Translations under genes and position numbers: made by a program | Assembly (NCBI RefSeq): GCF_002234675.1 | Contig: NC_019863.2 | Span: forward strand, 4,144,609 to 4,208,608 | Direction of reading: 5' to 3' | DNA length: 64,000 bases | From: Oryzias latipes | Taxonomy: Eukaryota; Chordata; Actinopteri; Beloniformes; Adrianichthyidae | The notes under the pieces: generated by a model | The model's database searches: none | Told to the model about the DNA's origin: nothing | Seen by the model: the letters and a program-made list of their open reading frames with translations, nothing else | Part shown: one piece after another, positions 1 through 64,000 of the stretch | How positions within the stretch are numbered: position 1 is the stretch's first letter | Layout of the letters: each line of letters opens with the position of its first letter

Positions 1-129
1 TACCAAATTACTATCCTATTTATAGATGGATAAATATCCTTTATTCAGATTTAAATATGTTACTATTTTATCAAATGTTTAGTCTAATTTCTGACATGTT
101 TCAGAAAGTATAGGGATACAGAAGATAAG

Positions 130-500
130 CAACAAACTAGCAAGCCATCCACGACACTCACCAAGTTAACTGACATGTCTGATAATGCGGAGCTGGAAGA
201 GCGTTATCCCGCTCATACCATGCTCATTTGCCAAAAAGCTAAATGTTAATATCAAGTATTATAACTTCGGTCCTGTTATGTTTTTAACGTTTAAATCATT
301 TTTCACTAAAAACGGACTATTTAGAGTGCGGTGCGTCACATTGTCATGGTAACCAGCACCCGCACTAACAGTTCTCGTTCTTCTTTCTGAGAAAAGTGGT
401 CGTCACAAACACATAAACAGAGCGGCTTTTCAGAAAGAAAGTTAGCCTCTTCCTGCACGTTTTTGTCCAGATGATATGAAGCAAAAGTTTGTTTACAAGC
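130..500. repeat. Unclassified dispersed repeat, copy 1
   Basis: This stretch matches 43750-44200 in several blocks in the same order: the TCTGATAATGC block, a 'CATACCATG' block, AAAAACGGACTATTT, and a block reading AGAAAGTT.GCCTCTT followed by TTTTTGTCCA and GAAGCAAAAGTTTGTTT. Two separated copies show it is a repeat family rather than unique sequence. An open frame across it on the minus strand (336-656) has no recognisable domain and I do not call it a gene. Termini and class are not resolved. Confidence 0.55.
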
Positions 501-1439
501 AACAAAGTCTAAATAGATCAGTTTCTCCGGGATCACATCCTCGTGTTTCATTTCTTTCTTTTTAGATTCTCCTCCCTTTTTCTCTTCTGCTCCATCCCAG
601 GCTTCAAAATGATCAAATTCACCAAACAGGTTAAAGGAAACTTTAAAAGCTCTCAAGCTTTTTCTACTGTCTTGCTGTTGTGATAAACTATTTTAGCTTA
701 ACTTTTCATTTTTCAAAAGTGACCGAAGTCTGAAACTGAATTTGTTCTTCAATCCAGACGTTATTATAAAAGTGTTTCAGTTGTAAAGATGACTTGGACC
801 AAACTCTGGGATGTTTGGCTGTTAATAAACACAAACCTTGAAGGAGAACTAAACTGCTGACCTCTGATTTCATCAAGAAGATTTAAAAACTGTTTGATGT
901 GTGTTTGTTGTGGTTTCAAGACGTTCAACAGGGAAAACTCATTGTAGCGCTGAGATGCTGTCAATTTAACCCAATGCATCATGGGAGACGTAGTGAAGAC
1001 AGACTAGCGTCTCTGAGCCTCATTGTATTGTTCACATGTTCCACAGTCTGACACCAGATTCTGTGGAAAGCTGCACCGCTAAAGACGAGCTTTAGCTGGT
1101 ATTTTTGTTGGAACTGAGAGACTTTATGAGCAGAATCAGAACAAGGAAGTGAAGACTTTAACCACTTCTGATTGGTCAGATTGATGACATGTGATTAAGA
1201 CTCCAAGAATGATTGGTGGAGACAGTTAAAGGGGCGGGACTTTTCCAAAAACAGAGCTGAAGCTGCAGCTAAATCGCGGTACCGTCATTCTTATCAAAAT
1301 GTCTTTAATAGAATCAAATAAACACAAAGAAAAAAGTATTTTATGATCTTTCATATTCCTAACTCCTCAGTGTTTTATCAAAGTCTGTTTGGATGAACAC
1401 AGAGCTGATATCCTGGAGATGGGAAAAATTTATAGATCA

Positions 1440-1532
1440 GGGAAAATGGGTAATTTCCTACGGCACACCTGACCATCTCCCACAGCGCACTAGTGTGCCG
1501 CGGCACACCGGTTGAAAAATATAGAGCACCCT
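1440..1532 (-). mobile_element. hAT-type element fragment
   Basis: The block holding GCGGCACACCGGTTGAAAAA next to ACTAGTGTGCCGCGGCAC resembles the terminal region of a common teleost hAT non-autonomous family, read on the minus strand. Only one end is visible and no duplication was found, so it is a fragment. Family assignment is from memory of the terminal motif. Confidence 0.45.
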
Positions 1533-1966
1533 GGACCAGGTGTTTTTTTTCTTTTCTTAATTGGCTAATACTGAAAAAATCCCTCTTGTGGTGTAAAAGT
1601 AGATTTAGAAAAAACGCCATAAAGCCACTTTATTAGTTGAACTTTGATCTTTTACTGCGCCACAATGTCACAAATTTAAATGAAAACACCTCAAAATGAG
1701 GCTTTTCACAGCAATTATTTGGTTAAAAGTATTTGCAATGAATTAATTAATTATAGGTCACGGTTAATTAATTGCACAAAACATTAAATGCATGACAGCA
1801 CTAATAATAGTAACAAGATCCTTTTTAATTTCATTCCAATACATGTTTTTTATCTGTTCTTTTCATCCCACTTTGTTTAATAACAAATAATAGCTTAGGA
1901 CATACAAAATGTGTTAATATCCACTTAACAAATAATTCTTGACCAGAAGCTCAACTTCTCTAAGTG

Positions 1967-2275
1967 AGTGTTTTTCAGCCTTTTGTGAGTCAAGATCCGC
2001 TTTTTCCTGGACAAAAATCACAAGCAGCGGCTGAAAATGTAAAACGGAGAAACTCTGAGTCCCTCCAGGTACTATAGTTGTAATATTGTTATTAGTTTTG
2101 GGGTAAAAATAATGATTTTTTATATTTTTTTATTACTTAATTTTAAATTTAACTCAATTATTTTCAAAAGTGCTTGCACTGTGAAACAGACTTTATCCTT
2201 TAATCCAGATGTTTTTTAGACTGAATAATCTTCCATGTCCCACCTTACCATCCCTGGTTGAAAAACCTGACACTG
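1967..2275. mobile_element. Small hAT-like MITE in c1galt1 intron
   Basis: The left end reads AGTGTTTTTCAGCC and the right end reads GGTTGAAAAACctgaCACTG, an imperfect inverted pair of the hAT 'TTTTTCAACC' type enclosing about 300 bp. No coding potential is seen. A flanking 8-bp duplication could not be confirmed. It lies in the presumed first coding intron of c1galt1, about 110 bp upstream of the exon at 2388. Confidence 0.4.
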
Positions 2276-2387
2276 AAGTACCACAAGGAGACTATTATTT
2301 TCATTTGAGAGGTCCTTTTTCAGATTTATTTTTTTGTTAAGTAAAAACTAGTACTTGTGTTAAATAATTGTTGCTATCTCTTTCTAG

Positions 2388-4046
2388 GTGAGGACAGCCA
2401 CTTGGCTGATGCCTTGTATAAAAAGGTGCGCATCCTTTGTTGGGTTATGACTGGACCCAACAACCTGGAGAAGAAGGCTCGTCACGTGAAGTACACGTGG
2501 AGTCGCCACTGCAATATAGTGATCTTCATGAGCTCTGTGGACGACCCGGACTTTCCTACGGTGGGATTAGGAACAAAGGAAGGGCGTGATCAGCTGTACT
2601 GGAAAACAATACGAGCCTTCCATTATGCCTACGAGCATCATGCAGAAGAGGCAGACTGGTTCCTCAAAGCAGACGATGACACTTACGTCATCGTGGACAA
2701 CCTGCGCTGGATCCTTGCCAACTACACGGCTCAAGACCCCATTTACTTTGGACGGCGGTTCAAGCCCTATGCCAAGCAGGGATACATGAGCGGCGGTGCG
2801 GGCTACGTGCTGAGCAGGGAAGCTCTGCGGAGGTTTGTGGAAGGCTTTCAAAGCAAAGTGTGCACTCACACTACCTCTGTGGAGGATCTGGCCATGGGGC
2901 AGTGCATGGAGAAGGTGGGAGTGAAGGCGGGAGACTCCAGAGACTCTGCACACAGGGAGACTTTTCACCCATTTGTGCCGGAGTCGCACCTCACTGGCAA
3001 GTTTCCAAAGAGTTTCTGGTACTGGAGTTACTGCTACTACCCCATTGTAGAGGCAAGTATAGAAAACTCTTCCCAAATCATTGAGGAATGTAAAAACACC
3101 ATTTTTACCGTAAAGAAAATGTTGTTTTTAGTTTGTTTTACACGTTCTTGGGGATTTTCTCTGATGATGGAGAACATCTATAAAGAAAATTAAGATTTTA
3201 TTGCGTTAATGAATATTTATTTATTCAAATTTTTTGACGAAAGAATACTGTTTGAAAAGGATATTTGTGGTTTAGAAAATACGCTGGGCGGGCCACCAGC
3301 CCACCATCCACCTGCATCCATGTTTTCCTGGTCTGAGCTGGAATCTGGATCCAACCTGTACAGCTGATATTGCTCCCCATTTTTGATGGGCCTGTCATGT
3401 TTGCTTGGGGTTGTGAGAGCCTGTTAGCTAGTGGTAGAGCGTGTAAGTAGATGGATGACAGGAAGTGGGGGTGGGGTTGCTCTGTCCCAACCATCCCGAC
3501 CATAACTCAGAGGTGAATTTCTAATGAACTCCTGTCGCTCTGCAGAAACTATCATATATAAAATGAAACGCTTAGAAAATACCTCAAAAGGTGATTGGAG
3601 TGGGACTTTAAAGCAATGTTAAAGTCACAAAAACACTTTGTAGTGTTTGATTGCTCTTTAGTACATAAATACTTTATCACAACTCCAACGTCTGACACAT
3701 TTTTTTTTTTGCAAACATGACCCATTTGCTCCTCTGAATGTGGTCCATTTCCTGTCTCTCGTTGTCTCAGGGCCCTCAATGCTGCTCGGATCTGTCCGTG
3801 TCCTTTCATTACGTGGACGCTGCAGGCATGTATCTGTTGGAGTACTATGCCTACCACCTGCGTGCCTTTGGCTACAGACACCGGTACCAGTCCCCCACCC
3901 CAAAAGGTTTGAGACTGGAACAGTCCGGAAAGCATCAACATGAGCTGACCTCTCAGGAAAAAGAGCGAGGGCAGGTGGAGCACAAAGAAGATGGCCCCCC
4001 CGGAGATGCTCGGGAGCCTCCGGCAGCTCCACAGGAGGGAAACTGA
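2388..4046 (+). CDS. c1galt1: Core 1 synthase (beta-1,3-galactosyltransferase), last two coding exons
   Basis: This enzyme adds galactose from UDP-Gal to GalNAc-Ser/Thr in the Golgi, forming the core 1 (T antigen) O-glycan. Coding exons are 2388-3052 and 3771-4046 (stop TGA). Together they give about 312 residues covering the whole lumenal catalytic domain. Visible hallmarks are [11 protein letters not shown] near the start, the metal-binding motif ADDDTYV at about 2668-2688, the FGRRFKPY and [11 protein letters not shown] blocks, [10 protein letters not shown], and the cysteine-rich [16 protein letters not shown] at the exon junction. Human C1GALT1 has 363 aa, so roughly the first 60-80 residues (cytosolic tail and membrane anchor) are missing; no such exon was found from 1 to 2387, so it should lie left of the window. 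The acceptor TTTCTAG at 2381-2387 fixes the exon start in split-codon phase. The intron 3053-3770 uses a GC donor (GAG|GCAAGT) with a normal CTCAG acceptor. The hydrophilic tail after about 3905 is variable. Which teleost paralogue (a or b) it is cannot be decided here. Confidence 0.93.
3205..3612. mobile_element. Non-autonomous repeat 'TTAAAGTCCCACTCC', truncated copy
   Basis: This intronic sequence aligns with 11014-11614. Shared blocks include GAGCTGGAATCTGGA, CTCAGAGGTGAATTTCTAAT, GAACTCCTG.CGCTCTGCAG and the end GTGGGACTTTAA. The right end reads GATTGGAGTGGGACTTTAA, the complement of the left terminus of the longer copy, so the family has inverted termini. This copy has lost its left terminus. 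Confidence 0.6.
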
Positions 4047-6404
4047 CACTCGTGCTGTGCAGGTGTGTTGAGGGAGCCTGTTTCAGTCCGTCATGACGTC
4101 CCTGGCTCAGAAAATTGGTCTTCTGTAATCGAAGTTTAATTTGCACAAAAGCAAAAGTTGAAGGACTGCTTTTCATGTCAACTGTGACTGCAAGACTGTT
4201 CCTGGTGTTCCTGACCGGTGGGCTGGCTTTACCTTTGTCTTAACGGGCGTCTTCTTTAAAGGCGGGGCCTTTTCTGAGCCTGCTGCTCTCATTGTGGAGC
4301 TGAAGTGAACAGTTCAGGCGTTTCCCTTCCCACTTTCTTTGTTCATTCTTCTGTTCTTCGTTACTGCTGTTGCATCAAAACTACCACTCTGTTGTTTTCC
4401 ATCTGCTGGAGCATCTGACCTCACTGAAGACGCTGTTTCATCTGGACTAAAAACCCAAATTCATTCATCGTAAACGATTAAATATAGGTTTTTAAGTTTT
4501 GGTGCAGTGGTATTGACGCAAACAACCCACCAAACATGAATTTGGCAGTGCTGTTAGTCCATTTATTGATGAAAAACCTTTTTTTTTTAGGGACTGGGAG
4601 TGCAGTTGGGCGTTGTAATTTTGACCTTTTTTGTGTTGTTCTTTTACTGAAAACTCTGAAGGGGAAGTGAAAGTGGGGATAAAGGAAGGAAGTCTTTAAA
4701 TAAGATGAGGTAAAGCGCCACGTAGTCAGAAGACGGTGCAAAAAAAGGAAACTATTGACACCAAAAAGCATGAACCAAAAATGATTTTTGGTACCAGCTC
4801 AGCTGGTAAACTAAATGGTAGTACTGTCAAGTCACTTCTACTATAAAGGACAAAAACATTTGAGTTAAAGGCAACTATTGATAGTATTTTAGTACTTATA
4901 TCCATAGAAACAGAATTGACACAATAGCTGGAAGTTCCAGCATCACATTTAGTTTTTTACAGTTTACTTGTTCTCAAAAAGTAAAAACAAACTTTTTTAA
5001 AGCAAAACCTGTAAATGAATGAAATCTTGTTTTAATTCTAAACCAGCAACAGATTCCTGTGGGAGACTAGACAAATCAGAATTTCTAGAAGGTTGTTGTT
5101 TTTTCTTGTGGTCTCAGAGGTGGATTTGTTGTTTTCATAATGACTAAATGCTCATGTGAAATCAAACTTTTCTCATGTCGCTCCGGTGGTTTGACCAAAA
5201 CAAAGGAAACCCACGGGATGGCGTTTGATCTGCAGTCCTCCTGGAAGCCGCAGAGCCTGAAAACGGCAAACGGCCTTCATTCCCAGAGAACTCCTGAGCT
5301 TGTGCCTTGTAGGATGAGATTGTATGAGCCGTCTGCACACGGGACTTTACACTGTGACACTGTTGAAACAAAGAGTGCTGTGCTTCCATCGCATCCTAAC
5401 GAAGTTTACTGTTTTAATGTGCTTCAGAAATACGTTACTGCTTCATGAAGAGAAACGTTTCTTTTTCTCTTGTTTTCCTCCTCTTTTATTTCCCTTTAGC
5501 ATATGAAATCATTTGCTTTTAGAAAAAGATGAGGTATATTTTGAAGTTAAAGTGTGTTTAAAAGGCCTTCACCTCGGCTGCTTTGGTGGTTTGAAACCCA
5601 ACGGACGTCCATTTAGACACATTCATATCTGAGAGCTTTCAGATTCAGAAGGATTTTGACAGAATGTTTTTTTCTGCACCAACGGCATTCTTGCCATTCT
5701 AACCACTTTCTTCTACTGTCTTTAGACCACATTAAATGATTAATCTATTACCTTATGACTTTTTTTTTACTTACTCTTTGTACCGTAATTGAAAAAACAG
5801 ATCAACATTTAAAATTTGCACATTTGTTTCATTCTGCTCTGTTTTCTGCAGATTCTGAGTTTTAGAATGGTTTCCAGTGGGAGGGACAACATATCCTTGA
5901 CAATATCCTCACAATTCACCATTTTCAGAGACATATGCTGTGACATATTTAAAGTGTCTTTGTGTTTAAATTTCTGTTCTTAGTGTGTTCATGAATCTGG
6001 GTGTGTCTGTGTGAAGAATTGGTGAGCAGGACCATTTTAGAAAAAAAAGCCACTTTCATCTAAATAAATGCACATTTTATTGAACATCTGCTTGTGTTTG
6101 TAATTCATCCTCAGCTTCTTTCCCTGCTGATGGTAAGGATTCTGGAGATAAATGGCACGGACATTTATGATCATTATATTCACAAAAGTAGGATCTATGA
6201 CAACTGGAGGTTTCAGTTCTGCAGAGTAGAAACTGGAGGAGATTTCCACTGCAGAAGGCAAAGTTTAAAGGTCAAAAGACTACATTTCTAATTTGCTTTA
6301 GGAAAAGTCTGAGCCATGACTGCCTCTGACTTCTTTACAATGTTTTTGTCTATTTATCAAATATTAAAACGGGCAATATTACTGAACAGGTAATATTGTG
6401 TCGG
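4047..6404 (+). other. c1galt1 3' flank, no gene seen
   Basis: This contains the expected 3'UTR of c1galt1. No canonical polyadenylation hexamer lies close to the stop; the first clear AATAAA I see is near 6063 (taaataaatgcac), so the 3'UTR end is uncertain. Short open frames here, such as 5140-5448, show no domain and low-complexity composition. Confidence 0.35.
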
Positions 6405-25100: not shown

Positions 25101-28100
25101 CTTTAGACAGTAAGAAGACGTGCTGGCAAACGAGGACGAGTGGCTTATGAGCCGGTTCCGACTTCCTCGAGCCGTCCTGTTGGACCTCTGAGGGCTTTTG
25201 GGCCCGGCGTTACAGAGGAGCACTCGGAGGAACCATGCGTCACCCGGTGCATCTGGCGCTCCGGTCCCCCCCCCAGCCCCTCGGACCGGCCTCCGAGGGC
25301 CACGGTCCGAGGTTGTGAAGCTACAGCATTTACGGCGTCTACCACGTGCCTTTTTGGCATTGGTAATGCCCACACTGTGCCCTCCAAACAACACTTTTCT
25401 CCTCTTTTCCACCTCGCCAACGATAACTTCTACTTCACATTGAGTGAAGTTACGTTTTTTTGATTTCCTCTCCGTGTTTGGCATGGTTTCGCAATCAATG
25501 AATATTCATTTGTGGGCGTTTAACGGACTATTTATGGGAAACTATGGGCGTGTCATGAAGCCGCAAAAGCTGCGCTGCATTTAGAATCGGTTGTGATTTA
25601 TTAAGGGAAAGATGCGTAGGATGTGCGTGCGCACGGTTTTATAAATCTGAATATTTCTGTGCGTACGCACGTCCTATGTTTCATCCGTACGCCACTTCTG
25701 ACGCAAATCCTACGCAAAGTTTTATAAATGAGGCCCCAGAGCTCTTATTTGATATGCACTTTTCATTTCGTAGTCACAGGGTCCCAGGTAATCAGTGCAG
25801 GGATTTGCAGTGAGGTTGAGGGCTGGTGAGGCACTGATTCCTCAGTTTTACAATTGCAAGATCTGAATATTTCAGAATTCATCTAACAGCAAGTAAACGC
25901 ACATAAGATGCACACAAGCAGGGCTCCAGACTAACTTTTTTCACTAGGAGCACAGTGACCCCTAACTGAAAATTTTAGGGGCACCACCAGAAAGTTTAGG
26001 GGCGCATGCCGTAAATCAACATGCTAACCAAATCTACCAATTTCCACTGTATTACTAATACGCGGCGGGGGGGCTGCTCTCCTGGTTGGTATTACTAATA
26101 AATACTTTAATAATAGATGCAGAAATTACAATGTGCTGTTTCATATTCAGTGTCACATTTTATTCTGCACTTTTGAAGATGCAACAAGAAGGTAAACTGA
26201 CAGCAGCATCGCTGTCATAATAGTACAAATAAGTAAAGAAAACGGATGGAAATGTATCTTTGTGACACCAAATAGGTGCAGCCAAGATGCACAATAAGCG
26301 TGTTTGAGATCACCCAGATGGACGCAACGCTGCGCAGATCACCTGGTGTGTGAAATATATTTTTGTTTTTGCTCCAACATCACCTGTCAATCAAAACAAA
26401 AATATCGCGAGAAAGGGGTGGGAGCAAGGGGCAAACCTACCCGGACACAGCTGAAAACTGAACTGACTGAAAGCTGCCCTGCAGACTACAAAACAATGCA
26501 TTATGGGACATGTGTCCTGATTGTTTTTGTAGTGGAGTGATTAATTAAAATAATTTAAAATACCAATTCATTAAAAAAGGCTACATACATCACAAAACAT
26601 TAAAATAATCGTAAAATATATAATAGCACAGATCACTCTAGGGGGGAGAAGAATATTAAAACTAAATTGAATGTTAAGGACAACTCCAATTTCCTGTTCT
26701 CCTTCAGTCTTGCTGCAGATTCACCCTCATCTCACAACCCCCCCTTCTGGTCTCCCCAACGATCCAGGCGAGGTGCCGGTTCATCTCAAGCACGTCTATC
26801 GTTGCATTTTCCCCACGTATTTTCAGTGTGTCTAAAACTAATGTTGTTTTTGCTCGAGCGTGTTTAAAGTTCAAGCCCCGTTAGCTGTCACGCATGTAGG
26901 TGTGGGACATTTATTCTCCTCAGCTGACCCGACTCCCGCGGGAGCGATGAGCTGCCGTAACGGCCGTGCATAACCGTTTGATGCGCCGCCGTAACTGTAA
27001 TCAAAACCTAAACCTTCCTCCGGGTCTGTGCGGCCCAGAGAAAAGTTCAGCACGGACTGCATGTATTTAGAAAATTACGAGCGAATAAATACGTTCTAAA
27101 GGAAAGTAAGGAACTCCTTAATGTGGTCCGGGGAGGGGGCTGTCAGGTTTCCCTTTTTTTTTTTTTTTTTTTTTTAACTTGTCCTGTCCAACAGCTGGGC
27201 AGACAGACGAGAGCTGAGGGCCTCTTGTGTTGGACATATTTTGCTTTAACAACAGGGGTTATTAATCTTCTGACAAACCAAAGGTATGTCTGAATAAACC
27301 CCTTTTGTAATTGAGGCCAAACTTTATTAATTTCAATCATGTCTGAAAATCTTTGGTGTTGGACCGGACGGAAAAGGAAAGAGGGGAAGAAGAGAGAGGG
27401 ACGCTAGAGAGAGGGGGGGGTAGGGGTGATAATAGGAGGGGAAGGGGGATAAGACCATGAAGCAGCATACAGCAACAAGTTTACTGGTTGTTAATCATTA
27501 TGGTAAGGTTCAAATGCAGTACAAAAAGGGCGGGGCCCGTCCACACACACACTCAAATGTTATAAACACACCTGCTAGCTGCAAAAATGTCCACCTGTCG
27601 ACATGTACACAAAACAGATAGTGTTCACACACGCATACTTATGCCTTAAAACCAACTAGTGTGAAATATTTCAGTCATTCAGTCATGCAAGCTATTAGTG
27701 CAAAGGTGAGCTAACACCAGTGCTCAGGTGAGGTTTTATGTTCTTCTAAAATGGATGGTGGAACGTGAAAAGAAGGAGGGAGAGTGCCCAGCCATCCCCA
27801 CCCCAAGACCCCCACCGCAGCAGCAGCGGCAGCCGGAATCCCCCCAACGCCACACGGGAACCGGCAGGGAACAACCGCCGCCCGGGCGACCAAGCCCGCC
27901 ACCCAGGCCAGGGCCAGCAGGGCCGCCGCAAGGCCCCCAGAGCCAGAGGCCAGGGAAGCACGGAGGGAAAGAGAGCGCCGCCCCAGCCCAACCAGGAGAG
28001 CAGCCCCCCCGCCGCGCCGGGAGAACCCAACGCAGAGCCCCACCGGAGAAGGACGCCCACAGCCCCAAACGAGCACCCCACCACCACCCAGGAGTTCCGG

Positions 28101-31100
28101 GCATCCCCCCGCCCCAACCCCAGGTACGAGCCAGGACCCCCCAAGGGAGACCCGCTCCGCACTCCAGGCAGCCATCCGCCCGGCCAACGGTTGGTCCAGG
28201 GAGGAGCGAGGCAGGGGGCCCGCCGCCCCCGCCCAGGAGGGGGGAACCCCGGGGAAAAAAAGAGGGCCCACAAGGGGTGTTATAAATATGCCCCGACCAG
28301 GCTCGGCCACAGTTGGAAATTTGGCGGGGCCCAGCACTCAGGAGCAAGGACCAGAACCCACCCCCCAGGGACCAGACAGCCCCGGCTCAGATGTAATGTG
28401 AACTCCCCCACCGCGCGGAGAGAGCACCGCCGGGCCCAGGAAGCCGGCACCCCGGGGACACGGCCGCCGTTGCAAAGGGGGGCCCGTACCCCCCACCAGG
28501 GAAGAGGCAGGGGACAGATGGACCCAGGTCCCACTTTCCTTGCAAAATGTGTGTGCGTGTATGTGTGTTTGAGATGGTGTGTGTGTGCATGTGTGTGTGT
28601 TTATGTTGGGATGTATATATTGAGGGGGGAGGGGTGTGTGTACTAAGGGGGGTGCAGTTAAAATTGGCGGGTAGGGGATTAAGGGGACATCTCCTGATTA
28701 CTCACAGTGACGTCCCCTCACCCTCCCCACCAAGGGGCCCTAAATGTCTAAGGTGCGGTTAAAATTGGCGGGTAGGGTGCTAGGAGGACATCCGCTGCTT
28801 GCTGGCAGTGATGTCCAAGCACCCCCCCTACCAAGGGCCCTACATGTCTAAGGTGCAAATAAAACCGAAAGAGGGGGGGCCCACTCCATACGGCAACCAT
28901 AGGAGGGGGGCCACTGCCTAGTAAACCCCCCCCAAGGCTCATCGCAGGCTAAGCCCCCCACCCCCTCACCCTATTATGAGGTTATATGAGGAAGGGGGTA
29001 AGTTGGGGACAGCTGATAGACTGTCCCCCGGTGGTCAAACAGCTGTCCCCCGCCCCCCCCCCCAGCAAGGGGGCCAGGCCCACCCAGCCCAGGGGCCCCA
29101 CCCCCGGAGGCGCCGACACCCCAGGCCCAGCACCACCCCCCCCACACAGAGAGAGAGGAGCCAGAAAGCGCCGGCCCCCCCCGGAGCAAGCCCAGGCCCC
29201 CACCCCCAAACGCCGGCCCTAGAAGAGCTCTGGTCAGGCCTCGACGGGACCGAGGCAGCCAACCGGCCGGGGAAACCGCCGATGGCCTCAGCGGAGACCC
29301 CGACCCGTCAACCCCCCCTGCCCCGTACCAATAGTGGACCCCCCCCCTCCCCCAGAATGCCCCCCCACAGGTCAGGGCCGACAAGACCCCCCACCCCACC
29401 CCCCCAGACCCCGCAGCCGAAGCGGAGGACACCCAGAGCGACCGGGGGCCCCAAGAGGGTTGTCCCGTCCCGCCCCAGAGCCAGGGAAGGGCCGATCCCA
29501 GCCCCAGGCGTAGATGGGAAGCCCATCCAGCGCCGCTGGCCCCCCCCCCCCCCGAGCAGCGCCCCCCGCCAACCCCCCCCCAGCACAGGCAAAGGGACCA
29601 CCCCCCCAAGCCAGGCCAGACCACCACCCCACCCCCCCACCACGCACCCCCACACCCAAGCCCAAAGGACCACGCAGCGCCCCAGCCCGCCCCACCCAGG
29701 CGCCGGACCCGATCCCCCGACCAACGGAGCCCCCAACAACCCCCGCCAGGCACCGGAGGCCTGGACCCCCACCCCGGCCCACGGCAGAAGGGCAAGGAGC
29801 AGCGACGACCAGGCCCCCCCCACCCCCTAAGTCACGGAGTTAGCTATGGGAGACCAGAGAGACCGAATTCTTTCGAAGTTACTTGAACTTTGGGCTGACA
29901 TTTTTTCCAAGCTGATATGATCAAGCAGCAGATTTCTGTGTTGACTTATATTTATATTTTTTTTAGCTTTTCCAATTTATTAAAATAGTTTTTTTTAGCA
30001 ATGCAAAGAGTTATGAAAATGATAGAGCCTAATCCTCCTTCTACATCGATGGCACTCATGTCACCAAGCACACAAAGTGACGGTGAAGCTGTGATTGAAA
30101 CCTTAAGCCAGACTGATAGATCGGCACATACCTGCCGCCAGAGAGCCTGGACAGGCGTGCAGAACCATAGTGCATGCATGTAATTGTCGGGTAGATTACT
30201 GTCACAGTGCTGACAAATGTCTGAGTTACTGAGACCCATCTTGAACATCCTCTGTCCAGTGTAGTAAATTCTGTGAAGAGTTTTGAAATGGATTAGCTGC
30301 AGATTTGGACTTTTTGTCATTTTAAAGGTGTTTAGACAAAGTTCTGACCAAAAACTTTCATCTGTGCTGATGCTCAAATCCGCATCCCATTTTGTTGTCG
30401 GAAGTGAAATATTGTTATCTAAATTGCATAAAAGTTTGTATATTTTGGAGAGAGTTTTATTCATTGAGAAATTGATCAGAGTGGTAACTACATCTGGTAG
30501 CTTTAAATCGTTGTCTCTGTATTTAAACTTTTTAGTAATAATTGATTTAAGTTGCTGATATTCCAAGAAGTTATATATTCCATGTTTGTCTTGAAGTTCC
30601 TGGGGAGTTATGAATCTTCTATCAATAATTATGTGCTCTAGTTGTTTTATGCCCCCTGCTTGCCAAGCTGGGAAGTGGATAATTTTTTTGTTTATGAGGA
30701 TGTCTGGGTTGTTCCAGATGGGTGTCATTTTGCACGGTTGAATTGATGATTTTGATATTTTGAGAAATTCCCACCAGGCTGTTAAAGTGGCATTTATATT
30801 AATACTTTTGAAACAATCCTGTTTTTTAACTATTTGACTAATAAATGGAAGATTTGACAGGTTGATCTTTCCACATAACGCCTGTTCCAAGTCTAACCAT
30901 GAGTTAGTTTCTGGATTATTTTTTAACCATTTTAAGATATATTGTAATCTATTTGCAAGAAAGTAATTTTGGAAGTTAGGTAATTCTAATCCTCCACAGC
31001 TTTTTGCAGATTTTAAAGTTTTTAGACTAATTCTTGCAGGTTTATTGTTCCATAGAAAGCTTGATATGGATGAGTCTAATGTTTTGAACCATTTTAATGG

Positions 31101-34100
31101 CGGTTGTGTGGGAATCATTGAGAAGAGATAATTAACTTTGGGTAAGATTTTCATTTTTACCGTGGCTACCTTGCCCATAAGGGACAAAGGCAGGTTGGTC
31201 CAGTGTGTTACATCGTCCTGTATGTTTTTCAGTAATGGGGTGTAGTTTAGCTGCACCAGTTCTGAAATTTTGGGGGAAAAATAAATACCTAGATATTTTA
31301 TATTGCCTGATTTGACTGGTATTGTGAGTCCTTGCTCCGCATTACTGTTCAGTGGTAATAAAACAGATTTATTCCAATTAATGGAATAGTCTGATATAGA
31401 AGAGAATTCATTAATGATTGTTGCCGTTTCATTTACAGAATGTATATTACTTAAAAACAGTAATATGTCATCTGCATAGAGACTAATTTTATGATGGCTG
31501 TGTTTGGTTTTAATTCCTTTAATACTCTCATTCTGTCTTATTGCTGCAGCTAGAGGCTCGATAAATATTGCAAAAAGAGAGGGGGAGAGTGGGCAACCCT
31601 GTCTAGTTCCTCTTCCAAGAAAAAACCTGTTGGAAGTCTGTTTATTAGTTCTAACTGATGCATTGGGGTTGTGATATAATATTTTGATCCAATTGATGAA
31701 TGATTCTCCAAACCCAAACTTATGGAGGGCAGCAATGAGGAACTTCCAGTTTACTCTATCAAAGGCTTTTTCAGCATCCAGTGATAGTATAGTCATTTCC
31801 TGGTTTTTGATGGTGGCAAAGTCTATTATGTTAACGAGTCTGCGGACATTATCATCCGAGCGTCTGCCTTTGATGAATCCAGTTTGATCAGGTTTCCTGC
31901 TTTCAAGCCCTGTCATTGTCCCGCCCCCAAGAGTCATATACCCCACTGTGATTGGTTGGTCAGCTTCGCGCACGACAATGAAAAAGTGTCATTCATACAA
32001 ACTGGCGGGCTGCAGTAACATTAAACCTTCATATTAAGGCGGGGACCGCAAAATATAATCTTGGGGGCCGCAGATAGCCTGCGGGCCGCGAGTTTGAGAC
32101 CCCTGCTGTACACTCTGGCACTGGTACACTAGCGCGCAGTGAGCCGGTTAGTGCTGCTGACGGTGTTAAGTGTGGACTCCTTGTGTGCTGTCTGACTGTT
32201 AGAAATCAGTGTGTGTGGACATCCCACAAGCATTGTGTAGACATGCACCATGTACACAGTAAGAAGTCAGAACTTCTGACACACTAATGGACGGTGGACT
32301 CTCTACAGACACACTTAGCACACGCACAAAAACGGTACATTCTATTTTAATGACGGGCCTCACGAGCCTCAAGTGAACTGAAAGACACACCTGCACTGCT
32401 CCTGTCTATGACCCTTCAGGGGGCCAGACAACCCAAAAACCCACTGCACCTGTACACCTGGCTTAAAGGATTTTGTACCCATTCCTGCTTTTTCTTTTTT
32501 CTTCCTGTAGGATGTGATGTTCTTTGCCAACACTCCTGCTGCCCCGTGGCCACAGTTTGCAGAAATGTTGAGCTGGCAGTTTCTTTCGGCCACCAAGCGC
32601 GGTCTGGACGGCGCTCAGCTGGAAATGATCGCACACAGGCTTTTTGGTAACGGTTTCAGTCGTGCTTTTGGGCAATTTTTCTTTACAGCACGATTGTTTT
32701 TAATAATTTAGGTAGTTTTTCATTAACATAGTCATATCCTGAAATGCCACAACAATATACTTCAGTGAGTGATGTTGTTATTTGATTAATTTTGTAGATG
32801 CTTAGCACTGACATCTGCCACATAGAGGTAAACTTGACACTAAACTGCACACCTGTGACTACTTCACCAGGATAGATTCTGTTGCATTTCTTGAATTCAT
32901 GATAATTCCCAGTGGCAGCATGCTGGATCAATAAGTGTATTATATTTTCTAGGATTGTAATGATACATGTAGTTGAACCGAACCGTTTCAGTACGGTATT
33001 TCGGTTCGGTTCACTTCTGTACCATTTAGGGACGGTACGCCCCCCCCGCATGTGCATTGTAACGACTCAGCTGCTTTGTCACTCATAGCGGGGAAATGAG
33101 AGCCGAGCTGCCAGTTAACTAGCTGCTAAGACTGTCCTTGCCCCGTATTCCACACGCCCTCAAACTGTCTCAGAGAGAGAGTAGACAGAGAATTAGATTG
33201 TTCCATCTCCTTTCCAACAATATTATGAACACACACGAACAGCGTAACAACATGAACCTCACTTCTCTTCATAGCTCTCTCAGTGATGGTGAAGGACAGA
33301 CAGAAGTTTCACACTTCCCATGAGTCGTAGTGTCTATGGGCGGGCCTAACCCCCAGGTCGCCACTGTATTAACTTTGCACAGAGGCGGAAGTAATGTTAG
33401 CCTTGAGTTTCTTCCCAGACGCTATTGGGTGACCGACAGTAAGCATGTCAACATATGGCTAATGCAGACGTGAGGCCAGAGATGAGGACCCCCCCCCCAT
33501 CTCCTTACGCTCTCCTGTGTGGGAACACTTCGGCTTTGTTGTCAGCATCCGTGAAGGGAAAAGACAAGTGGATAAGTCGAATGCTGTGTGTTGACATAGT
33601 TACACAAAGATAGTGTATGCCACAGTAACACATCTAATCTGTTAACTAACTTAAAACGGCATCACCGACTGGAATAATGGCGTCTACAAGAAAAAAAACG
33701 TGCAAGTTCAAATGTTTTTTTTCAGGCCAGCGTTAATTATCCAAAGTTTTTCTTATTTTATAAAAGAGAACACCTACATAGGTCAACTTTATTTATTGTT
33801 ATGTAAAACCAATATATTAATTTTGTTAGTAATTTTTTTTGCTTTCGTTTTTTGTACAGAAAAGATACCGAAAAAAGATAAATAGAGAAAAACTTTATTA
33901 ATCTCCAAAGGGATAAATTCATTTTGAATTTTAATTCATTTGATCCCTAATTCATTTAATTTATCTTTTGTTTTTGTTCTTTTAAGGAAAACAAGAAAAC
34001 TATGACACCTGCAATGTAACTTGGTCAAAATTTAGTAAGGTAAGAGTGGAACTCTAACAAATGTCTTCTTACTTACTGCAACAAGAACAACACTGCTTTA

Positions 34101-60969: not shown

Positions 60970-61493
60970 TTAGAGAGACCGTGAAGACCCTGAGCAATGA
61001 CACCGCCCGTCTCTCCGAGGAGAACCGATCCATAAAGGAAACCCTCCTGGATCTTCAGTCGAGGAGCATGAGGGACAATCTAGTGGTCGCGGGGGTTCCA
61101 GAGGAGGCAGGAGAAGACCCCGAGGCCACCGTCAGATCCTTTTTACAGGTCCACCTGAAGCTCCCCAAGGAGGAGGTGCAGAAGATCTCTTTCCACAGGG
61201 TTCACCGCCTCGGAGGAAGAAGGTCCGACCACCAGCGCCCGCGTCCTATTGTGGCTAAATTCGAACATTTCAAACAGAAGGAGTTGGTGAAGGGCCGCGG
61301 ACGGGAACTGAGAGGCACGCATTACAGCGTGAATGACCAGTTCCCGGCAGAAATCCTCCGTAGAAGGAAGATCCTGTTCCCGCTGAGGAGGAAGCATCTT
61401 GCTGCTGGTTCGAGAGCGATTGTGGCCGTTGACAAACTTTACGTGGACGGCCGGCTGTTCCGGGACCCGGAGATCACCCCCTGGCTGTGCTGA
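60970..61493 (+). pseudogene. L1 ORF1 protein, N-terminally truncated
   Basis: ORF1p is the trimeric RNA-binding chaperone of L1. The element-derived part starts near ETVKTLSNDTARLSEENRSI, a heptad-rich coiled-coil end. The RRM-type domain follows with LQSRSMRDNLVVAGVPEEAG, then RVHRLGGRR and PRPIVAKFEHFKQKELV, and then the C-terminal domain with YSVNDQFPAEILRRRKILF and LYVDGRLFRD. It stops at 61491-61493. The coding frame continues upstream to 60762, but that part is flanking DNA. No internal stop is present. Confidence 0.8.
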
Positions 61494-62021
61494 AGGCTTT
61501 CAGATCCGCGCTGAGAACATCTGCGCTGCCCAGAAGAAACCCGCTAAACTTACTTCAATGAATGGAAAACCGGATCATCAATAATCCACACCTCGATTCT
61601 CAGGAAAACAGTCTTTTTTTTTCTTCGTCACCTCAGTCCCACTGATGTTTCTATTGTTGTTTTGTTGTTGTTTTCGTTTTCCCTTCTATCTCTTTTTTTC
61701 TTTCCTTTACTCTCCCCCCCCCCCTCTCCCCCCTCATTATATGTAAATCACCTGGAAGCAACTCATCCTCGGTAAGTATTTATTTATGCACGGAACGGGC
61801 GCGCGCACACACAAGCGCACACAGGGGCGTGCACATGCGATCCCGCACACACACGCCGACATACTGCAATCACCTCACACAGGCTCTCATAGGACGCACG
61901 CGACACGCAGCTCACATAGCCAGAAAACGTTCACGCGCACAGCGCTTCTCAATGCGGGCACGCGCACACGGACTGGTACACAAGCACTACTTAGCTTTAC
62001 ACCTTTTCAGTCAGAGCAGTT
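61494..62021 (+). other. L1 inter-ORF spacer
   Basis: Contains a T/C-rich run (61610-61735) and a CGCACAC-rich tract (61798-61980). No start-stop overlap of ORF1 and ORF2; the spacing is 528 bp. Confidence 0.7.
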
Positions 62022-64000
62022 ATGAACAGTCTTAACATCGTTAGCTGGAATGTGCGTGGACTTGGCTCTGAGCCAAAGAGACTGAAAGTGTTAAATCACC
62101 TGGATGGTCTAAAAGCAGATATAGCTTTACTGCAGGAGACCCATTTATCAAATTCTTTGGATCACCTTATGTGCTGCTTACAATTTCCAGTTATATCCTC
62201 TGCCAGTTACAACTCCAAACAACGAGGAGTTGCTGTTTTAATTAATAAAAATCTTAATTTTACTCATAAGGATACAGTTACTGACCCAGAAGGCAGATTT
62301 GTAATCATTAATATATCCATTCAGAATAAGGACTTTTGTATAGTGAGTATTTATGGTCCTAATGTTGACGACTCTTCCTTCTTTCACAGATTCTTCACCT
62401 CACTCTCAGTTCACTCTGACTCCACAATCATTATAGGAGGAGACTTCAACCTTGTTTTGGACCCTGAACTTGACAGACTCAGCACAGCAGCAAATCAGCG
62501 TACATGGCGATCTGCAAGTATTCTAAAGCAGTACATGAATGATCTGGGTCTCTGCGACGCGTGGCGCTCATGTCACCCAAGCACTAAAGGGTTCACCTTT
62601 TTTTCTCCAGTTCACTATTCACACTCCCGTTTAGACTATTTATTAATCAGTAACTCTCTTTTAAAAAATATTCAAAGCTCCAATATCCATCCAATTATTA
62701 TCAGTGATCATGCACCAGTCTCTGTAAACATTTCTAGGGAAAAATCCACACCCTCTGGTACAACCTGGAGGTTTAATACGTCTCTGTTAAAGGACCAGGA
62801 ATTTCTTGAATTCTTTAAAAAAGAGTGGGCAACCTCCTTAGACTTCAACAATACTCCAGACATCCCACCGTGCGTTCTTTGGGAAACAGCAAAGGCAGTC
62901 ATGAGAGGGAAAATCATTTCTTATTCAACGCACAAAAAACGCAAAGAGAAAGCAGATTTATTAGAATTAGAAAATAAAATCAAAACCCTGGAGACTGCTT
63001 ATGCTGCTTCTGCACAGGAACACATTCTGGGAGATCTGAAAAATTTAAAGCTGCAGTTAAATGACATCATTAATAAACAAACACAATTTCAAATACAAAG
63101 GCTACGACTTGAAAGATTTGAAAACTCTAATAAATCTGGCAAATTTCTGGCTAATCAGCTTAAAATTAACAGAGAAAAATCATCAATCACCTCTATTATG
63201 GACCAAACAGGAAATGTCACCCATGACCCGGTCAAAATTAATAACGCATTTGAAAACTTTTATAAAAACCTGTACACACCGCAGATCAATCCGTCAGAGC
63301 AAAGTATTGACTCATTTCTTAATAATGTAAACCTACCCAGGCTAAATGAGGATCAAATCACAAACTTAGATTCTCCGCTCTCGCCGTCTGAACTTCATGA
63401 AGCTCTGTTACTTATGCCCAATGGTAAAGCACCAGGGCCTGACGGCTTTCCTGCTGAGTTTTATAAAGAATTCTGGGAACAACTGGCACCAACATTTTAT
63501 AAAACTGTCACATCTATTAATGAGAGCCAATCAATGCCACCTAACATGAACTCAGCCAACATAATTCTTCTTCTAAAACCAGACAAAGATCCCACTAGTC
63601 CTTCAAGCTATCGCCCTATTTCTCTAATCAATGCAGATGTAAAAATTATCTGCAAAGCACTAGCACAGAGAATAGAAAAAATCACTCCTCACATAATTCA
63701 CTTCGACCAGACTGGATTCATCAAAGGCAGACACTCGGATGATAATGTCCGTAGACTAGTTAATATAATAGACTTTGCCACCATTAAAAACCAGGAAATG
63801 ACGGTACTATCGCTGGATGCTGAAAAAGCCTTTGACAGAGTTAATTGGAAGTTCCTTATTGCTGCCCTCCATAAGTTTGGTTTTGGAGAAGCATTCATCA
63901 ATTGGATCAAAATATTATATCACAACCCCAATGCATCAGTTAGAACTAATAAACAGACTTCAAACAGGTTTTTTCTTGGAAGAGGAACCAGACAGGGCTG
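62022..64000 (+). CDS. L1 ORF2 protein (endonuclease and start of reverse transcriptase), incomplete at window edge
   Basis: From ATG 62022 the frame stays open for 659 codons to the window end. The APE-type endonuclease is complete with its catalytic blocks: SWNVRGLGSEPKR, ALLQETHLS, VSIYGPNVDD, IIGGDFNLVLD, SRLDYLLIS and IISDHAPVS. A linker of about 150 residues leads to the RT N-terminal blocks: [60 protein letters not shown] and RGTRQG at the edge. The YADD box and C-terminus lie outside the window. In the element this enzyme nicks target DNA and primes reverse transcription of its own RNA. The lack of any disruption suggests recent activity. Confidence 0.88.
   Translation, partial: MNSLNIVSWNVRGLGSEPKRLKVLNHLDGLKADIALLQETHLSNSLDHLMCCLQFPVISSASYNSKQRGVAVLINKNLNFTHKDTVTDPEGRFVIINISIQNKDFCIVSIYGPNVDDSSFFHRFFTSLSVHSDSTIIIGGDFNLVLDPELDRLSTAANQRTWRSASILKQYMNDLGLCDAWRSCHPSTKGFTFFSPVHYSHSRLDYLLISNSLLKNIQSSNIHPIIISDHAPVSVNISREKSTPSGTTWRFNTSLLKDQEFLEFFKKEWATSLDFNNTPDIPPCVLWETAKAVMRGKIISYSTHKKRKEKADLLELENKIKTLETAYAASAQEHILGDLKNLKLQLNDIINKQTQFQIQRLRLERFENSNKSGKFLANQLKINREKSSITSIMDQTGNVTHDPVKINNAFENFYKNLYTPQINPSEQSIDSFLNNVNLPRLNEDQITNLDSPLSPSELHEALLLMPNGKAPGPDGFPAEFYKEFWEQLAPTFYKTVTSINESQSMPPNMNSANIILLLKPDKDPTSPSSYRPISLINADVKIICKALAQRIEKITPHIIHFDQTGFIKGRHSDDNVRRLVNIIDFATIKNQEMTVLSLDAEKAFDRVNWKFLIAALHKFGFGEAFINWIKILYHNPNASVRTNKQTSNRFFLGRGTRQG

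Follow-up and report, generated by a model that had tools for sequence, protein, structure and literature searches.

A 5'-truncated L1 insertion in medaka and the long G-rich 3' untranslated region of its family

Introduction

The G-rich tracts in the 3' untranslated regions (3'UTRs) of mammalian L1 retrotransposons are far shorter than the one considered here, which belongs to a long interspersed nuclear element (LINE) of the L1 clade in a 64,000-nucleotide stretch of the medaka (Oryzias latipes) genome (NC_019863.2, forward-strand positions 4,144,609 to 4,208,608, assembly GCF_002234675.1; hereafter the window). According to passages of two published reports, the 3'UTR of perissodactyl L1 is approximately 100 bp in length (PMC5872511), and quadruplex sequences in the 3'UTR of naked mole-rat L1 modulate retrotransposition, the effect of a quadruplex ligand on retrotransposition depending on the presence of the 3'UTR (PMC7952902). 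The medaka element resembles the L1 elements of human and naked mole-rat in its L1-clade ORF2, its A tail, its target duplication and a 3'UTR that is G-rich on the sense strand. It is unlike mammalian L1 in that the G-rich sequence amounts to 1.7 kb, falls into two parts and starts directly at the ORF2 stop within a 2.65-kb 3'UTR. The likeness to the mammalian 3'UTRs is one of strand, place and composition. Sahakyan (2017) is among the works cited in the paper on naked mole-rat L1 quadruplexes.

Among fish, a survey that uses Swimmer_Ol (AF055640) recognizes six L1 families in medaka (PMC4746887), and passages of a study of LINE base composition, in which the word 'UTR' does not occur, describe fish L1 as AT-biased (PMC7140322). 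The present family shares with the teleost L1 clade, including Swimmer 1 of medaka (AF055640), its character as an L1-clade LINE. Swimmer 1 is said in the title of its paper, as cited in PMC8550402, to be a low-copy element, whereas markers in the middle of ORF2 and in the tail of the present family are found at 1,130 and 7,951 places, respectively, and the two are set apart by this described copy number. The family is presumably represented in Repbase. Among the titles and abstract openings listed in our literature search, which covered few subscription journals, none describes a fish L1 with a G-rich 3'UTR.

Evidence for a single insertion

The genome searched was a 734-Mb assembly of 25 contigs in which the window is part of contig C5 and the insertion locus is C5:4171751-4176505. 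Read along the minus strand from 31890 to 27154, the locus begins with a truncated L1 ORF2, which is followed by a G-rich block, a 0.6-kb end of ordinary composition and A22. The first-pass annotation had treated ORF2, block and poly-A as one insertion. We reach the same reading and give it a probability of roughly 0.93: window positions 27154-31890 are a single minus-strand insertion of an L1-clade retrotransposon that is truncated at its 5' end and carries an A22 tail. Direct observations are the architecture, the constancy of this architecture from copy to copy and in two subfamilies, and the target duplications at several loci; 29 other loci are collinear with the window copy, and the second subfamily also carries the block.

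The ORF2 frame of the window copy lies on the minus strand and contains an RVT_1 domain. When it was compared with solved structures using phmmer, the best match was human L1 ORF2p (E 4.8e-72, 246 bits), against 53 bits for R2; as judged from this structure match, the ORF2 is nearer to L1 ORF2p than to R2 and the element is an L1-clade LINE. Two full copies (L031 with L002, and L033 with L004) comprise a short leader, a 288-residue frame that is a candidate ORF1, and then an ORF2 with endonuclease and reverse transcriptase, the ORF2 frame being broken in L033. Pfam identifies Exo_endo_phos (E 1.1e-17) and RVT_1 (E 2e-18) in the ORF2 of L031, and the 288-residue frame of the same copy has no Pfam match and matches solved structures at E 0.59 or worse. 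The L031/L002 copy is approximately 7.9 kb long. Copies of the family end in a 3' poly-A and vary in their 5' truncation or inversion (the latter in L032).

In 19 of 31 copies the ORF2 frame stays open as far as a TAG at 29829-29827 (context GACTTAGGGGGTGG). The remaining stops are at 29923 (six copies), further upstream (five copies) and, in the window copy itself, at 29954-29952. Since the frame reaches 29829-29827 in these 19 copies, the G-rich block begins at the stop codon and the family 3'UTR measures 2,651 nt (29826-27176) instead of the 2.8 kb first estimated.

The ends of the insertion were originally defined by a ten-base repeat. This repeat, TCAGGTTTCC, is present exactly twice in the window on both strands combined, at the two positions originally reported (27143-27152 and 31888-31897). 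In shuffled windows it occurs 0.12 times on average and two or more times in one of 100 shuffles, and when random pairs of 40-base segments of the window were drawn up to 3000 times, five pairs had at least ten bases in common; the repeat taken alone is modest evidence. A comparison of copies refines the 5' end. All 29 other loci, which were selected by a match to the whole stretch, match the window copy from 31890 inwards, and beyond this position 28 of them have upstream L1 sequence in common over about 480 bases or more (L023 over about 20 bases). Because the other copies also carry the TCA at 31888-31890 and diverge only beyond it, these three bases are L1 sequence, and the duplication that belongs to the flank only is therefore seven bases, GGTTTCC, plus three of microhomology. 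On this comparison the 5' junction is one with three bases of microhomology, and the ten-base target-site duplication first proposed is a genuine repeat of which three bases belong to the element. At the other end the repeat had been placed directly before a 22-nt poly-T; the 22 T are present (27154-27175), with an extra C at 27153 in between. The insertion is supported, but the duplication, which had been taken as proof of it, proves it only together with the other copies.

Target duplications were also found at L008 (17 bases), L030 (12), L002/L031 (14) and L003/L032 (16, with a 5' inversion). At four further copies that were examined (L011, L014, L018 and L004/L033) no duplication was found, which weighs against the reading preferred here.

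The window insertion, on the minus strand, is most probably the product of target-primed reverse transcription, of which the 3' A tail, the truncation inside the reverse transcriptase domain with three bases of microhomology and the short target duplication are the marks. An unoccupied target would hold one GGAAACCTGA between both flanks. The G-rich block is a family-wide component of the 3'UTR and begins at the ORF2 stop of an element of approximately 7.9 kb. In having a 9-bp inverted repeat just before the A tail, the element resembles LINEs of the stringent type, in which a 3' hairpin is read by the reverse transcriptase; it is unlike them in that the fold energy of the possible hairpin is near that of shuffled sequences (z -1.56) and in that no compensatory changes were found among 47 rows partly selected for one arm. 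Within these partly selected rows, eight of the nine base pairs are intact in 46-47 rows each, and 38 rows retain the ninth.

Order of ORF2, G-rich block and tail across the genome

A search of the genome with the whole stretch, in which 32 of 6,670 candidates were scored, listed 35 matches at 30 loci, 29 of them elsewhere than in the window. Among these matches all 29 loci are 95.8-99% identical to the window copy and collinear with it from ORF2 through the G-rich block to the tail, and most of them reach the A tail and then pass into an unrelated flank of their own; L028 is without an A tail. L017 and L030 finish early, by 0.14 and 0.2 kb, respectively, in an A-rich tail; L017 does so directly after AATAAAGTTT, which hints that the 3'UTR contains a poly-A signal further upstream.

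Because this set of 30 loci had been picked by matching the block itself, markers were used for independent sampling. With up to three mismatches allowed, the ORF2 marker P1 has 1,155 places; 100 were listed, 84 of these lie on contigs C1-C4 and 82 were used, two being dropped because they lie beyond the end of the list for the block marker P2. At 71 of the 82 places P2 follows 326-401 bases 3' of P1. Among the other 11 the block is present in L071, L079, L080 (where approximately 0.7 kb of additional sequence separates P1 from the marker preceding the block), L086, L088 and all three of L094-L096, and in total 79 of the 82 ORF2-anchored places continue into the G-rich block. The three exceptions (L091, L092 and L093) break within ORF2, each at a different point. 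L091 (C1:27747729-27748100) lacks approximately 2.77 kb of the sequence linking ORF2 to the tail and retains the tail and poly-A. A second sample was anchored just 5' of the block by marker E (1,387 places; 100 listed, 99 used), and the block is present at all 99 places (78 by P2, 20 of 20 that were read, plus L011). Four of the 20 that were read (L071, L080, L082 and L089) have internal deletions of approximately 70 to 1,480 bases within the block. The check proposed in the first-pass annotation, whether the block follows ORF2 in other copies, thus gives 79 of 82 and 99 of 99. The abrupt change of composition at the end of ORF2 might have indicated an independent repeat or host sequence lying next to a truncated L1 by chance, but the same position in both anchored samples, and in a diverged subfamily, makes this explanation exceedingly improbable, and the anchored places rule it out for the L1 family.

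The diverged subfamily is represented in the window itself. The L1 copy on the plus strand at 60972-64000 is 85.5% identical to L031 over this region and continues in L070 (positions 1-4511), where the G-rich block recurs together with the tail and poly-A. L070 is 92.4% identical to the window copy, and by this alignment a subfamily that differs by about 8% also carries the block.

A second class of ORF2 without the block had been feared from the mid-ORF2 marker F (1,130 places), since 23 of its 49 exact sites on C1 are without any listed 3' marker. One of these, L097, has the block and shares 99.0% identity with L070 across 700 bases. The block marker of the second subfamily (709 places at up to three mismatches) lies 1,147-1,149 bases downstream at 14 of the 23 sites, L097 included, according to distances compared by eye, and for these sites such a class was rejected. 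The nine of 49 exact sites that were not read and have no listed 3' marker weigh against a block that is universal in the family.

A short interspersed nuclear element (SINE) or other element behind the 7,951 tails is likewise unsupported in the sample, as all 19 usable tail loci match the L1 3'UTR; 13 extend through the whole of the fetched 0.9 kb or to within 15 bases of its limit, five are shorter and one (L063) is internally deleted. No confirmed relatives were found in the viral_contigs and genome_contigs collections.

Composition and predicted G structures

An extreme G-rich block of about 2 kb had been described, and this is borne out: on the sense strand, 27771-29830 is 68.5% G+C, 39.6% G and 8.9% A. 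The block spans 2.06 kb of the 2,651-nt 3'UTR, of which 1.73 kb is G-rich, in parts of 960 and 770 nt around a 330-nt stretch of ordinary composition. Quadruplex prediction (runs of three or more G, loops of 1-7), as recommended for the minus strand, gave eight sites there and none on the antisense strand. Each of the 30 loci has 5-10 predicted sites in the sense direction and no antisense site, and L070 has seven and none.

Dinucleotide shuffles of the block give a mean of 7.7 predicted quadruplexes, and the finding is therefore one of strand bias and composition rather than of an excess of motifs. The parallel drawn earlier with the quadruplex-forming 3'UTR of mammalian L1 consequently stands for strand, place and composition and not for a number of motifs beyond composition.

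The block might instead act as a DNA element, such as a promoter, a CpG island or a plus-strand gene, and its G+C content and long open frames on both strands are what would recommend such a role. However, its observed/expected CpG ratio is 0.47, below the usual limit of 0.6 for CpG islands, and the four proline-rich frames that were tested match no Pfam family. The only Rfam match in 26900-32200 at E up to 0.1 is to mir-877, with 26.8 bits against a family cut-off of 47 bits. The apparent CpG island and the proline-rich genes suggested for this region are accordingly not upheld, a protein-coding or known-RNA reading was rejected, and we consider a DNA element very unlikely. The family also spreads G-rich DNA over many places in the genome (2,431 for a marker inside the block), and such scattered blocks can mislead both gene and CpG-island prediction.

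Evolution and possible role of the G-rich block

Two groups of copies, g1 and g2, were compared with one shared outgroup copy, L070. The divergence of g1 from L070 is 6.2% in ORF2, 7.4% in the proximal block, 4.1% in the middle part, 7.9% in the distal block and 7.7% in the tail. Of 111 changes in ORF2 between L001 and L070, 72 are at third positions, and ORF2 differs by 0.2% within g2. The tandem units of approximately 101 bp (28651-28864) lie in the slowest-diverging part of the 3'UTR (4.1% versus 7-8%).

At non-CpG sites of the block, G has changed at 21 of 632 sites (3.3%) and other bases at 69 of 838 (8.2%) in g1; the corresponding counts in g2 are 23 of 629 and 67 of 836. The difference between G and the rest gives P values of 0.009 (g1) and 0.059 (g2) in the proximal part and 0.003 (g1) and 0.002 (g2) in the distal part, and no lower rate for G emerges when ORF2, the middle part and the tail are compared in this way. 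This is a hint that the G-richness of the block may be maintained.

Two interpretations of these data have to be weighed. The block could be a passive and old 3' extension, perhaps captured host sequence, that is retained as the 3' end is always copied and whose G-richness is without effect. To this we give slightly less than an even chance: the number of quadruplexes equals the expectation from composition, the divergence of the two block parts equals that of the tail, and the substitution flows are balanced. Such a block would, however, be expected to drift towards the composition of the remaining element, and G is kept more than other bases inside the block and not outside it. The other interpretation is that the G-rich RNA strand of the L1 folds into quadruplexes or other G structures that are kept since they aid or tune retrotransposition, which we infer only tentatively. 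The wider proposal, in which a fish L1 lineage, independently of mammals and on a much larger scale, has kept a G-structure-forming 3'UTR under RNA-strand selection, with 1.7 kb of G-rich sequence that starts at the ORF2 stop codon, persists in subfamilies approximately 8% apart and acts in retrotransposition, is somewhat more doubtful. Several results weigh against such a function: there is no excess of quadruplexes over shuffled blocks (eight versus 7.7), G in the block compared with G elsewhere in the 3'UTR gives P values of 0.057 (g1) and 0.62 (g2), substitution flows to and from G are balanced, and the evolutionary comparison depends on the single outgroup copy L070. If G-rich 3'UTRs did arise in both fish and mammalian L1, the tract would look less like a mammalian accident than like a working component of the L1 life cycle, and a family as recently active as this one (judging by the 0.2% difference within g2) would permit a direct test in its host.

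Truncation along the element

Markers placed along the element from 3' to 5' have 7,951, 4,242, 2,431, 1,387, 1,130 and 604 places, the first being a 24-mer near the terminal end of the 3'UTR (up to three mismatches) and the third lying within the block. In the same direction copies are lost at 1.92, 0.37, 0.61, 0.21 and 0.27 per kb, although these counts are affected by mismatches in old copies and by the second subfamily. Among the 58 exact C1 sites of the mid-block marker, 27 have another listed marker on their 5' side. The loss across the proximal block (0.61 per kb) is two to three times that across ORF2 (0.21 and 0.27), and stalling of the reverse transcriptase in the proximal block is possible. 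A block that works against its own element, with the reverse transcriptase stalling or jumping there and truncating many insertions, would also be in keeping with the internal deletions at L071, L080, L082 and L089. The greatest loss (1.92 per kb) is nevertheless in the ordinary terminal 0.3 kb, the counts have the dependence already noted, and the hazard of truncation may simply decrease with length; we regard a block that harms its element as unlikely.

Feature coordinates and a neighbouring fragment

Table 1. Features of the L1 insertion and of the second L1 copy in the window
Feature	Position	Strand	Basis
3'-side copy of the target-site duplication (TCAGGTTTCC on the plus strand)	27143..27152	-	Repeat search; other copies exit at or near the A tail into unrelated flanks
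Single extra base (C) separating A tail from duplication	27153	.	Read from sequence
A22 tail of the element (T22 on the plus strand)	27154..27175	-	Sequence and other copies
Terminal 3'UTR of ordinary composition	27176..27769	-	Composition
Possible 3' hairpin, 9-bp arms 27185-27193 and 27228-27236 (TGTCCAACA / TGTTGGACA)	27185..27236	-	Inverted repeat just before A tail
Distal G-rich part of block	27770..28540	-	39.5% G, one predicted quadruplex
Two tandem units of approximately 101 bp between both G-rich parts	28651..28864	-	In least-diverged part of 3'UTR
Proximal G-rich part of block	28870..29829	-	46.9% G on sense strand, 7 of 8 predicted quadruplexes
Family ORF2 stop (TAG), start of G-rich block	29827..29829	-	Frame end in 19 of 31 copies
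Early ORF2 stop of the window copy	29952..29954	-	Reading frames
5'-truncated ORF2, part of reverse transcriptase and C-terminal region	29955..31890	-	RVT_1, structure match
5'-side copy of the duplication; 31888-31890 L1 (microhomology), 31891-31897 flank only	31888..31897	-	Copy comparison
Second L1 copy, diverged subfamily, running past the window edge into L070	60972..64000	+	Identity to L031 and L070

A 29-base perfect piece of the G-rich block, in sense orientation, lies between two copies of TATTACTAATA at 26050-26100, approximately 1.1 kb away from the L1, and looks like a templated micro-insertion.

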